From NCBI GenBank assembly GCA_027076905.1, contig JALTGP010000313.1:7089-42244 (forward strand): a DNA stretch of 35,156 nt, given 5' to 3'. Shown in pieces: positions 7,790-10,516 of the stretch. Each line of letters starts with the position of its first letter. The first letter of the stretch is position 1. Position numbers and translations under genes: made by a program. This DNA is from Campylobacteraceae bacterium (lineage in GTDB: Bacteria > Campylobacterota > Campylobacteria > Campylobacterales > Sulfurovaceae). Under the pieces are notes generated by a model that saw only the letters and a list, made by a program, of their open reading frames with translations, made no database searches and had not been told where the DNA came from.

Positions 7790-7806
7790 TTGTTTAATTT
7801 GTATTC

Positions 7807-7983
7807 CTAAGTAAACCCAAATTTAACGATAAGAAATGTGCCTTTTTCTTATCGCCCGTAGGGTGAAATGATTTTGCTTCATCTTTGCACTTAAATATAC
7901 TCGAATTAGCTATGGCTAGTCCTTCGTATATCTAAGTACAAATCTAAGGTAAACTCATTTTCATTAAATTTGGGTTTACTTAG
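7807..7983. mobile_element. 177-bp MITE-like element with perfect 20-bp terminal inverted repeats
   Basis: The left arm ctaagtaaacccaaatttaa (7807-7826) is the exact reverse complement of 7964-7983. Inside, a second perfect 9-bp hairpin cgataagaa/ttcttatcg (7827-7835 with 7846-7854) starts directly after the left arm. A partial copy of the arm, ctaaggtaaac, precedes the right arm. The inside has no ORF, and its GC is higher than that of the flanks. No target-site duplication is evident. It fills the gap between the DUF3108 gene and the convergent Roadblock gene. It may be a miniature transposable element or a structured non-coding RNA/terminator. Confidence 0.55.
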
Positions 7984-8005
7984 CGTGAACGGTACTAGAG
8001 GTAAT

Positions 8006-8374
8006 TCACGATAGTTCTGCAACAGATTTTTTTAATATCTTAGGTAATACCATTTTTGCAAGTGCAACATTTCCATCTTGCTTAAAAATAGCAAAAACGT
8101 GCAGGTGAACAGATTCATCTTCTCCTGAACATGCCATAAGAATTTTTGCTTTTTCTGTAGTAATCTCCATAACTGTTGTTTTTCCCAATGAAAGCTTTCT
8201 TGAGAGAGTATGAGAACTCCTAAAGACATCATTAAAAATAACTGCTGTCTCTTCAAGATTTATTTTATTATCAAGTTTATCAGAAAGTAAAAGTTCTCCT
8301 GTATATTGACTGATACCGATACCAAGATAGCCATTAATCTGTTTTATATCTTCAAAAATAGACTCATTTATCAT
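8006..8374 (-). CDS. Roadblock/LC7-like protein (first paralogue)
   Basis: This 122-residue protein is about the size of the Roadblock/LC7 (MglB-like) fold, a small alpha/beta domain that forms dimers and often regulates small GTPases. Visible features are a first helix, then NGYLGIGISQYTGELL, the helix motif FNDVFRSS, a central beta sheet, and the closing motif GNVALAKMVLPKIL. It shares GY.G, TGE, FND.FR and GNV.LAKM with the second copy at 9084-9422, so they are paralogues. A GGTTGGAG ribosome-binding site precedes the ATG at 8374. It is transcribed divergently from the PAS-Roadblock-LRR operon, with a dyad element in the shared control region. The family call rests on pattern and length only. 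Confidence 0.65.
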   Translation of the reverse strand: MINESIFEDIKQINGYLGIGISQYTGELLLSDKLDNKINLEETAVIFNDVFRSSHTLSRKLSLGKTTVMEITTEKAKILMACSGEDESVHLHVFAIFKQDGNVALAKMVLPKILKKSVAELS

Positions 8375-8402
8375 AACTCCAACCTTTTTTAATCAATTGC
8401 AT

Positions 8403-8433
8403 TAAGTTCAATATATTAACTATTTTGAACTTA
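8403..8433. promoter_or_regulatory. Dyad operator candidate ahead of the Roadblock gene
   Basis: taagttcaa (8403-8411) and ttgaactta (8425-8433) are perfect inverted arms with a 13-base spacer, so the half-site centres are 22 bp apart, about two helical turns. It lies just downstream of an extended -10 (8450-8442, minus), roughly at the predicted transcription start, a usual position for a repressor operator. It could instead form a 5' leader hairpin. Confidence 0.5.
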
Positions 8434-8441
8434 TGTTAGAA

Positions 8442-8450
8442 AGTATAACA
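8442..8450 (-). promoter_or_regulatory. Extended -10 promoter of the first Roadblock gene
   Basis: The minus strand reads TGTTATACT, a near-consensus -10 with a TGn extension. The predicted start near 8435 abuts the dyad element at 8403-8433. The rest of the gap to 8568 is AT-rich with no other gene; it should also hold the promoter of the PAS operon. Confidence 0.5.
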
Positions 8451-8568
8451 TAATTAAACTTTATTATTATTATTTGTATGTAAAATTTTAATACTAAATT
8501 AATACAATTTATATTATTATTACACAAGCTTACTGAGGAGTAATCTTGCAAGAAAGGAGATAAATAGT

Positions 8569-9069
8569 TTGGAAAAAGAGAGAATATTAAGTCCTGTTGA
8601 TATTATTGTTTCTCAGTCTGACTTGGATGGTTTTATTATCTATGCTAACCCAATTTTTTATAAAATTGCGGGGTATAACTATGGAGAGTTGATTGGAGAA
8701 AACCATAATATTATACGTCATAATGATATGCCAAGGATAATTTTCAAGTTACTTTGGGATGCGTTAAAGCAGAAAAAAGAGGTCTCTTGCTTGGTTAAAA
8801 ATAGATGTAAAGAAGGGGGGTTTTATTGGGTGTTTGCCTATATTCGCCCCTCTATTAATCAGGATGGGACAGTTCGTAACTATATCTCTACCCGTCGTGC
8901 CGCTTCAAAAAAAGCAAAGTCTATTATTGAACCACTTTATAAACAGCTGTTAGAGACTGAAAAAGAGTATGGTATGGAGTTGGCTAATGAGCAATTTAAA
9001 CAGTTTATAGATATCAATCGATACGGAGAACAATCCGATAATGAGGTAATTTATAATATACAATATTGA
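8569..9069 (+). CDS. Aer-type PAS domain signalling protein
   Basis: This 166-residue protein is essentially one PAS domain. The motif IIYANPIFYKIAGYNYGELIGENHNIIRHNDMP is the Aer/PAS-fold pattern, in which related proteins bind FAD or haem to sense redox or oxygen. FYWVFAYIRPS and the closing YISTRR complete the domain by about residue 125. The remaining 40 residues are helical and charged. There is no kinase, methyl-accepting or output domain, so it presumably signals by contact with a partner. The start is TTG at 8569, with AAGGAG upstream; no better start lies nearby. It is the first gene of a three-gene operon with a Roadblock protein and an LRR protein, which suggests it feeds a signal to them. 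Confidence 0.8.
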   Translation: MEKERILSPVDIIVSQSDLDGFIIYANPIFYKIAGYNYGELIGENHNIIRHNDMPRIIFKLLWDALKQKKEVSCLVKNRCKEGGFYWVFAYIRPSINQDGTVRNYISTRRAASKKAKSIIEPLYKQLLETEKEYGMELANEQFKQFIDINRYGEQSDNEVIYNIQY

Positions 9070-9083
9070 AAGTAGGAGAGAAA

Positions 9084-9422
9084 ATGAAACTAGAAAAAGT
9101 AATTAATGAAATTAAAGGAATTAGTGGTTATATTGGCTCAACAATCCTCAATAAAACAGGAGAGATTATCTATATTGATGAAGACAAAACGATAGACCTT
9201 GCTTTTTCATCTAGCCTATTTAATGATACATTTAGAACGCTTACTGAAGCATCTTTGGATATTGGATTAACAGATTTAATTCATTTAGAGGCAGAGACTA
9301 AGGAGGGGGAGATTTTTTTGATTTATGCGAACCAAACGAATACAATATTTGCTACTTTTGATTCAAAAGGTAATGTATCCTTGGCAAAAATGATTCTTTC
9401 ACAAGCTATAAAGAGTAAATAA
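9084..9422 (+). CDS. Roadblock/LC7-like protein (second paralogue)
   Basis: This 112-residue protein is paralogous to the one at 8006-8374, with the same order of motifs: ISGYIGSTILNKTGEII, FNDTFRTLTE and GNVSLAKMILSQ. I chose the ATG at 9084 because TAGGAGA lies just before it. An upstream TTG overlapping the PAS stop would add six residues but has no site. The next gene's ATG overlaps this stop codon by one base, so the two are probably translationally coupled. Roadblock proteins typically pair with a GTPase of the MglA or Roco type. Here the neighbour is an LRR protein with no P-loop. The family call is by pattern only. Confidence 0.65.
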   Translation: MKLEKVINEIKGISGYIGSTILNKTGEIIYIDEDKTIDLAFSSSLFNDTFRTLTEASLDIGLTDLIHLEAETKEGEIFLIYANQTNTIFATFDSKGNVSLAKMILSQAIKSK

Positions 9423-10516
9423 TGTTTAATGTATTCAAAAAATTTTTTCATGATCCCAACAAAGAGACAATTGACATATTTGAAAGAGAGATAAAAGTTG
9501 AGTACGATTCTAGTTTCTTTTTATCTCTAACTGTCCTCTCTTTAACAAATACTAACCTTCGAAACCTTGTGCCGTTATCTGTTTTTACCAATGTAGAGAT
9601 TTTAAACCTTGCTAACAATAGAATCTCTGATATTGCCCCTTTGGAGGCATTAAAAGAGCTAAAAATTCTTGATTTACGATTCAATCAGATAAAAGAGCTT
9701 CCTTCTTGGATTCATGAACTTGATAAGCCTCTCTATTTGTCACGAGATGATGAAGAGAAAGAGGGAATCTATTTAGAGGGAAACTCTTTGAGTGAAAGAA
9801 CGATTTTAAAAATAAAAGATAGACTTAAAAGTATTTCAAAAGAAAAAAAACCTATATTAGCCTTAACAGAGCCAATAAAAGAGAGAGATGCTTTAATTCA
9901 GCTAGAACCTTTAAATACTCAACATCTTATTGTTTTTTTACCCAAAGAGAATCATTCTAAAATTCTTGATGAGATAAATTCATTTAATACAAAATTACAT
10001 ATCAATCTTTCGGTTTTAGAGTATGATAATCGTGATACTATTTTGAATCCAAAACATCAAATTTTAGAGAAGGCTAGATACATAATAGTAATTCTTAATG
10101 ACAGAGAGTGTTCTTTGCATCCTCATTTATGGGAGTCTATTTTCAAAGGGTATGCCTCTAGTAAACTATTTTTAATAATAGAGGGAGAGGTAAAAGATAT
10201 TCAAAAGAAGATGAAATTTTTTAAGACATATAGTAAATTAAATACGCTTTTAGAAGTTTTTAATGGCTATGATAGCAGAAGTAATCAAGAGATTATTAAA
10301 AAAATTTATCATTATGTTGAAACCTCACAAGAGGTTAGAAGCCTCTGGAAGCGAGAGTGGATACTTCTAAAAGAGGCTATTGAGGCAAAAGAGAAAGACG
10401 ATATAACCTTTGAAGAGTTTCAAGTAGTAGCAGAGAGTTTCTCCATCTCCACCGAGATGAGGGAGTATATCTTTGATTATCTGAAGAGAGTGGGGTCTAT
10501 TAAAGAATTTGATTAG
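9422..10516 (+). CDS. LRR protein with TIR-like middle and COR-like C-terminus (Roco-like, no GTPase motif)
   Basis: This is a 364-residue protein. Residues 34-122 form leucine-rich repeats (LTVLSLTNTNL, VEILNLANNRIS, LKILDLRFNQIKELP) closed by IYLEGNSLS, as in bacterial Roco proteins. Residues 305-364 match the start of the COR segment (LWKREWILLKEAI, DDITFEEFQVVAESF, YLKRVGSIKEF), ending where a normal COR would continue. Between them (about 165-300), where Roc should be, I see no GxxxxGKS/T P-loop or other GTPase motif. The stretch EKARYIIVILNDREC...LWESIF instead resembles the core of TIR domains, with Glu238 at the position of their catalytic Glu. There is no signal peptide, so it is cytoplasmic. 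It is coupled to the Roadblock gene by a one-base overlap. The LRR call is secure; the TIR-like and COR-like calls are inference. Confidence 0.7.
   Translation: MFNVFKKFFHDPNKETIDIFEREIKVEYDSSFFLSLTVLSLTNTNLRNLVPLSVFTNVEILNLANNRISDIAPLEALKELKILDLRFNQIKELPSWIHELDKPLYLSRDDEEKEGIYLEGNSLSERTILKIKDRLKSISKEKKPILALTEPIKERDALIQLEPLNTQHLIVFLPKENHSKILDEINSFNTKLHINLSVLEYDNRDTILNPKHQILEKARYIIVILNDRECSLHPHLWESIFKGYASSKLFLIIEGEVKDIQKKMKFFKTYSKLNTLLEVFNGYDSRSNQEIIKKIYHYVETSQEVRSLWKREWILLKEAIEAKEKDDITFEEFQVVAESFSISTEMREYIFDYLKRVGSIKEFD

Follow-up and report, generated by a model that had tools for sequence, protein, structure and literature searches.

The Campylobacteraceae bacterium genome assembly GCA_027076905.1 (family Sulfurovaceae) carries a compact four-gene island that encodes two Roadblock-like proteins (RB1 and RB2), an Aer-type PAS protein, and a leucine-rich repeat (LRR) protein that descends from Roco proteins and has none of their GTPase motifs. 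The island looks like a genus-level variant of an order-wide PAS-Roadblock-GAF kinase gene group, and it appears to have been rewired, with a pseudo-Roco in place of the kinase. It spans positions 8006 to 10516 of the 35,156-nucleotide stretch of contig JALTGP010000313.1 that we analyzed (the window), exactly where a preliminary description made from the sequence of the window had placed its four genes. Genomes and loci are referred to below by G and L numbers.

Roco descent of the LRR protein

The last gene of the island (positions 9422 to 10516, plus strand) encodes a 364-amino-acid protein whose segments follow one another as in a Roco protein. An LRR segment (approximately residues 35 to 105; positions 9524 to 9736) that matches the Pfam family LRR_4 (E = 2.6e-14) is followed by the linker EGIYLEGN (residues 114 to 121; 9761 to 9784), which is common to Roco proteins, then by a region that occupies the place of the Roc GTPase domain (approximately residues 166 to 305; 9917 to 10336), and finally by the N-terminal part of a COR domain (approximately residues 306 to 364; 10337 to 10513). 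From residue 62 to its end the protein aligns collinearly with a full LRR-Roc-COR Roco from the same bacterial order (23% identity, E = 3e-13), and the linker is kept in the orthologues, with near-identical words in the Roco of L090. The only PDB fold matches with E values below 0.001 were three Chlorobium Roco (CtRoco) LRR-Roc-COR chains, aligned over approximately 370 columns; two CtRoco entries that hold the LRR domain alone gave E values of 0.016 and 0.054. These results bear out the earlier label of an LRR/Roco-like protein.

Profile comparisons pointed the same way. The region after the LRRs matched the Roc-COR segments of five Rocos with a probability of 95.4, compared to 5.1 for the best of 100 column shuffles and 0.4 for the reversed profile, and the COR part alone matched Roco COR with a probability of 94.7 (hhalign, E = 6e-8). 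Pfam COR-A was found in none of the 34 genomes of the genus at an E value of 0.01, though the orthologue profile does match Roco COR, and a profile search with the C-terminal part of the window protein returned no Pfam family and, among PDB sequences, no meaningful hit. The P-loop, GK[ST], DxxG, and [NT]KxD motifs were missing from all seven sequences scanned (window and six orthologues), and we therefore file the LRR protein as Roco-derived and not as a Roco GTPase. Because the COR part carries the profile match while the Roc part is silent, Roco descent is secure for the LRRs, the linker, and the COR part, which we assign with confidence, and is by position for the middle domain, which is probably a pseudo-Roc to judge from its place, its length, and a weak model. 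The succession of LRR, Roc position, and COR is retained, with COR present only in part and Roc assigned by its place in the chain. The preliminary description had noted that no GTPase is present; this holds for an active GTPase, whereas a GTPase relative is probably present after all, as a motif-less Roc fused to the LRRs.

Two Roadblock subfamilies and an Aer-type PAS protein

RB2 (9084 to 9422, plus strand; 112 amino acids) was modeled by AlphaFold2 with a pLDDT of 81 and a pTM of 0.76, and the model runs through the elements by which we defined the Roadblock fold: helix, two strands, long helix, three strands, helix. Foldseek matched the model to Roadblock/MglB structures in the PDB with a probability of 1.00 (6h5b, TM-score of 0.75; 7yh1, TM-score of 0.74), and nearly all of the best 50 fold matches were Roadblock, MglB, Ragulator, or dynein/axoneme proteins, alongside one profilin complex. 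By its predicted structure, then, RB2 has the Roadblock fold, as had been anticipated. RB1 (8006 to 8374, minus strand; 122 amino acids) is 33% identical to RB2 (E = 8e-18 in a two-sequence comparison), and it is through this identity that we call it Roadblock-like. A 12-row profile of both Roadblock kinds matched one PDB Roadblock, 7yh1 (E = 4.4e-4).

A tree of the family split it into two subfamilies, type C and type K, with support of 100/100; RB2 fell in type C and the orthologues of RB1 in type K. Support for each set as a single group (RB1, 90/95; RB2, 93/92; type C, 92/90; type K, 86/78) was below the tool's star level. The rows of the tree had been labeled beforehand by open reading frame (ORF) length and locus, with over-long ORFs trimmed, and loci L059, L061, L065, and L068 stand outside it. 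RB1 and RB2 are paralogues, as first described, and members of two old subfamilies; a recent tandem duplication is ruled out by the tree.

The PAS gene (8569 to 9069, plus strand; 166 amino acids) had a single Pfam domain match, PAS_3 (E = 6.2e-14), and its best solved match was the Aer PAS domain 8dik (E = 8.3e-26), in agreement with its initial assignment as Aer type. When Aer numbering was set on the 8dik alignment through the published positions S28G, M69, W70, and H92, all seven FAD (flavin adenine dinucleotide)-site residues (H53, R57, H58, D60, W70, N85, and R115) were identical in the window protein. It differs from Aer at position 59 (N for P) and at M69 (L), T18 falls outside the alignment, and one orthologue (L089, the same as L082) has D in place of H58. 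The parts of the Aer literature used here report that R57, H58, and D60 are needed for FAD binding (PMC2628428) and place H53, R57, W70, N85, and R115 around the flavin (PMC9668731). These residues suggest that the island protein is of the FAD-binding Aer type and would bind FAD.

An order-wide PAS-Roadblock-kinase gene group

Using a two-row profile, we found the Roadblock family in 30 of 398 genomes from the order at an E value of 0.001 (in G084 barely, inside a 659-amino-acid ORF). Within the genus, 15 of 34 genomes had it at 1e-6. We examined 34 loci from 27 of these 30 genomes (G084, G269, and G293 were left out) and eight more loci in the genus. Nearly every type C Roadblock, the RB2 side of the tree, has an Aer-type PAS gene within 800 bp (27 of 28 loci). 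A kinase, counted as any match of at least 60 amino acids to four kinase queries, lies within 3 kb at 26 of the 28, and a SixA-like gene within 800 bp at 16. All three neighbors are present at the four extra loci outside the tree. By comparison, none of the 10 loci of type K, the RB1 side, has a PAS gene, and six have a GAF kinase or a lone GAF gene nearby. Outside the genus, nine genomes have type K and six of these also have type C, a co-occurrence that is compatible with a joint role.

The genus itself has nine canonical loci (L043 and L140 to L147). At seven of them, the GAF kinase beside the Roadblock gives neither a HisKA nor a receiver match at an E value of 0.01 (L043, 5234 to 7132; L140, 5190 to 7058; L141, 4157 to 6010; L142, 4281 to 6149; L143, 1995 to 3917; L144, 1269 to 3089; L145, 1047 to 2948), and from an alignment we take these seven, which are conserved, to be pseudokinases that retain the GLGL-type box but have lost DxGxG and the phospho-acceptor His. 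L147 is intact, its kinase and that of L044 having HisKA and receiver matches, and L146 has no kinase within 7.5 kb. With the linked kinase devoid of catalytic motifs at seven of the nine loci, Roadblocks in this genus have neighbors of two kinds that look catalytically dead.

Two other arrangements were seen in the survey. At two loci, near-identical type K genes flank the gene of a 105-amino-acid protein beside a lone GAF gene (L037, 7114 to 8398; L038, 7836 to 9122), which looks like duplication or gene conversion, and at L050 (9439 to 12591) a FIST-PAS-hybrid kinase gene adjoins a canonical PAS-Roadblock-SixA-like group.

Distribution and layout of the island

The gene order, which was sought in other Campylobacterota, is not unique to this genome: carriers within the genus rule that out. 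Of 34 genomes of the genus, 8 carry the LRR gene, and these are the only carriers among 175 genomes from the 11 genera of the family. A search of the 398 genomes from the order (E of 1e-8) gave matches in three, namely, the genome of the window, one with a true Roco (G004), and one with LRR-only matches (G287). All eight carriers are draft genomes. Five show all four genes in order (the window, L085, L086, L087, and L088, where the LRR gene exits the contig), two show PAS-RB2-LRR and then the contig end (L084 and L089), and in G420 the set is spread over two contigs, with RB1, PAS, and RB2 (5' part) on one and the LRR gene (3' part) on the other. Every island gene visible on the carrier contigs keeps the same order. 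Named relatives of the island come from Campylobacteraceae, Campylobacterota, and Sulfurovum metagenome-assembled genomes. A contig scan with the orthologue alignment gave seven loci, six of them islands and one a Chitinophagales Roco with a P-loop, and a scan with a single C-terminal LRR-protein sequence gave no relative. The gene after LRR presumably encodes a signal-peptide-peptidase-like protein in L078, L071, L079, and L083 and other products in L080, L082, and the window, and L081 ends within the LRR gene. In a viral collection, 90 stretches fit a pattern and none was a relative. None of the four proteins matched a PADLOC defense model at an E value of 0.01, and we rejected a known anti-phage defense system on that ground.

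The tight coupling of PAS, RB2, and LRR was described correctly: 14 bases separate PAS from RB2, and the LRR ATG and the RB2 stop overlap by one base (in the six orthologous loci L084 to L089, RB2-LRR spacing is 0 to 11 bases). PAS starts at a TTG preceded by AAAGGAG and RB2 at an ATG after GGAG, the RB2 ORF as listed beginning earlier, at a TTG at 9066. RB1 is divergent under a dyad in the promoter region between RB1 and PAS (8403 to 8433, no strand; 13-nucleotide arms, 92% complementary), as reported; this dyad was not seen in the orthologous intergenic regions of relatives, so that it is rejected as a conserved operator. A second dyad (8431 to 8453) is common to the window, L084, and L085 only. 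The candidate for a shared promoter or operator is an AT-rich block without strand (TATAACATAAT to AAACTTTATT; 8444 to 8465) that is recognizable in all eight aligned RB1-PAS intergenic regions and altered in some of them. Just 3' of RB1 lies a palindromic repeat of approximately 177 bases (7807 to 7983) with 38-nucleotide terminal inverted arms, which looks like a miniature inverted-repeat transposable element; the stretch from 7790 to 8005 has 13 matches in its own genome including itself, the other 12 being partial (at most 99 bases).

Proposed mechanism and alternative readings

The reading that we favor, tentatively, is a relay of redox signals that involves no catalytic switch. In it, the PAS protein would act as a cytoplasmic FAD sensor of redox or oxygen state and relay its state to a Roadblock dimer, formed by RB2 alone or by RB2 with RB1. 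This dimer would grip or release the LRR protein through the dead Roc, which would serve as a docking module and not as a GTPase, and the LRRs would touch a downstream target, so that the signal may pass without a working GTPase. As to origin, a PAS-Roadblock-GAF kinase group would have gained a Roadblock of the second subfamily, and a truncated pseudo-Roco would have replaced the kinase. We infer the protein contacts (PAS feeding the Roadblocks, the Roadblocks holding the LRR protein), the pairing of RB1 with RB2, the order of the evolutionary events, and the output. A broader version, which we regard as rather doubtful, is that PAS-Roadblock signaling in this genus lost catalysis twice, once in the pseudokinase and once in the pseudo-Roco, and that a heterodimer of two Roadblock subfamilies grips a dead partner and signals by binding alone, like Roadblock-platform assemblies.

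Several observations weigh against the relay, among them those on GTPases given below. RB1 fell below the cutoff of Pfam Robl_LC7 (12.4 bits versus 23, E = 0.14) and RB2 was unmatched by this family, which matches 5 of 12 Roadblock family members at E values of at most 1 (best E, 0.0028). The whole-chain model of the LRR protein is weak (pLDDT of 56.7), the CtRoco fold matches have TM-scores of only 0.18 to 0.22, and the Roc segment alone has no profile match to Roco Roc (probability of 0.9).

Among the alternatives, the one that survives best, unlikely as we judge it, is that PAS-RB2 continues to work for histidine kinases that the cell has elsewhere, a pathway to which the LRR protein would have been added as an adaptor. 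The kinase neighbors of the RB2 subfamily outside the island (26 of 28 loci) speak for it, as does a canonical PAS-Roadblock locus in both the genome of the window and G415. However, the canonical partner in these two genomes is a pseudokinase, and no canonical Roadblock locus was found in the other six of the eight carriers, all drafts.

Somewhat less likely again is that the LRR protein has in its middle no Roc remnant at all but an unrelated alpha/beta domain, lodged between the LRRs and a COR-like part. The silence of the middle domain in the profile comparison, the lack of a Pfam Roc match, and a low-confidence model of alternating strands and helices would suit such a domain, whereas its place between a Roco linker and COR would not. 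The span from linker to COR, measured between slightly different anchor words, is 174 to 217 residues, compared with 201 to 217 in five P-loop Rocos, and the full-length fold search ranks CtRoco first.

We give a slightly lower probability to a GTPase-regulating module, in which the two Roadblocks control a GTPase whose gene lies outside the set, or the Roc-like domain has an atypical mode of nucleotide binding. A search with PF08477 (Roc family) in five carriers (G000, G411, G413, G415, and G416) gave 20 matches, all in ORFs of at least 414 amino acids; the three proteins matched in the genome of the window look like IF-2, Der, and MnmE. The same search finds a small GTPase in G205, a 158-amino-acid Ras-like protein (L132, 5470 to 5946) with no Roadblock-profile match at an E value of 10 among the ORFs in the 12 kb around it. 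When 335 small ORFs from 49 loci were scanned for an N-terminal P-loop, seven were positive, three of them Ras-like GTPases in another genus of the family (L056, 2655 to 3215; L062, 71 to 577; L063, 11647 to 12156), approximately 3.5 to 5 kb from a type C Roadblock; the L056 and L063 genes adjoin an approximately 400-amino-acid gene of the same kind. One of these three, used as query, matched all five genomes of that genus that were searched, none of the eight carriers, and none of three genomes that consist of one contig and have type C Roadblocks (G025, G269, and G365). These Roadblocks are thus not always accompanied by a GTPase, although type C Roadblocks may be in that other genus. The three GTPases favor a GTPase-regulating module and leave room for a link between this Roadblock family and a GTPase, the lack of matches in the eight carriers tells against it, and a draft carrier may have a GTPase that its sequence data miss. 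According to the portion of PMC4316618 consulted here, MglB-type Roadblocks of bacteria do regulate MglA-type GTPases.

Finally, a decaying Roco gene that shares no function with the two Roadblock genes next to it could explain the shortened COR and the missing GTPase motifs, and is very improbable given that all LRR orthologues with a visible end terminate 2 to 6 residues past the same RVG, that gene order is retained despite different flanks, and that the ratio of nonsynonymous to synonymous substitution rates (dN/dS; NG86) is 0.16 to 0.38 for LRR. The corresponding values are 0.10 to 0.30 for RB1, 0.05 to 0.20 for PAS, and 0.11 to 0.24 for RB2 (computed on pairs that include the window or exceed 60% identity, five of which yielded no estimate); dS is above 1 in many pairs, and therefore only the sense of selection, purifying, is safe. 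The island genes are under purifying selection.

Relation to known systems

The tentative relay shares parts with several known systems. The MglA/MglB polarity switch of Myxococcus and Thermus likewise uses a Roadblock adaptor, and the RB2 model matches MglB structures, but the island has two Roadblock subfamilies, PAS and LRR partners, and a motif-less G-domain relative fused to LRRs; it has no MglA-type small GTPase, and none was found in the draft carriers. Actinobacterial conservons (CvnA kinase, CvnB Roadblock, CvnC, and CvnD GTPase) resemble the canonical group in having a Roadblock near a sensor kinase, whereas the island has neither a kinase nor a small GTPase gene and only three scanned loci of the order have a small Ras-like GTPase near a Roadblock. 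Roco proteins (Chlorobium tepidum Roco and kin of LRRK2) share the LRRs, the linker, the Roc position, and the start of COR with the LRR protein, which lacks their GTPase motifs and ends after the first part of COR. The CetA/CetB energy-taxis receptor of Campylobacter jejuni, in the part of PMC2628428 that we used, also pairs a PAS-only Aer-type protein with a separate partner; CetA, however, is a HAMP chemoreceptor, and the PAS neighbors in the island are Roadblocks and a pseudo-Roco. The canonical PAS-Roadblock-GAF kinase(-SixA-like) group also sets a type C Roadblock beside an Aer-type PAS gene, but it has the kinase and SixA-like genes that the island lacks and is without the LRR protein and type K Roadblock that the island adds. 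Among the best literature matches we found no description of such a gene set (MglB with Sulfurimonas gave 0), so that the module is unfamiliar, as had been remarked, although not without kin in the order.

Bacterial Roadblocks have mostly been regarded as regulators of GTPases, and Rocos as GTPases that form a group uncoupled from them. In the sections of PMC4316618 drawn on here, MglA GTPases are coupled to MglB, conservons combine a kinase, a Roadblock, and a GTPase, and Rocos in the clade are reported to be uncoupled from MglB homologues. The island unites what that published scheme, as far as those sections go, keeps separate, with the GTPase part apparently dead, and most PAS-Roadblock-kinase loci show no small Ras-like GTPase gene nearby. 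This suggests that bacterial Roadblocks are also adaptors for kinases and dead G domains.

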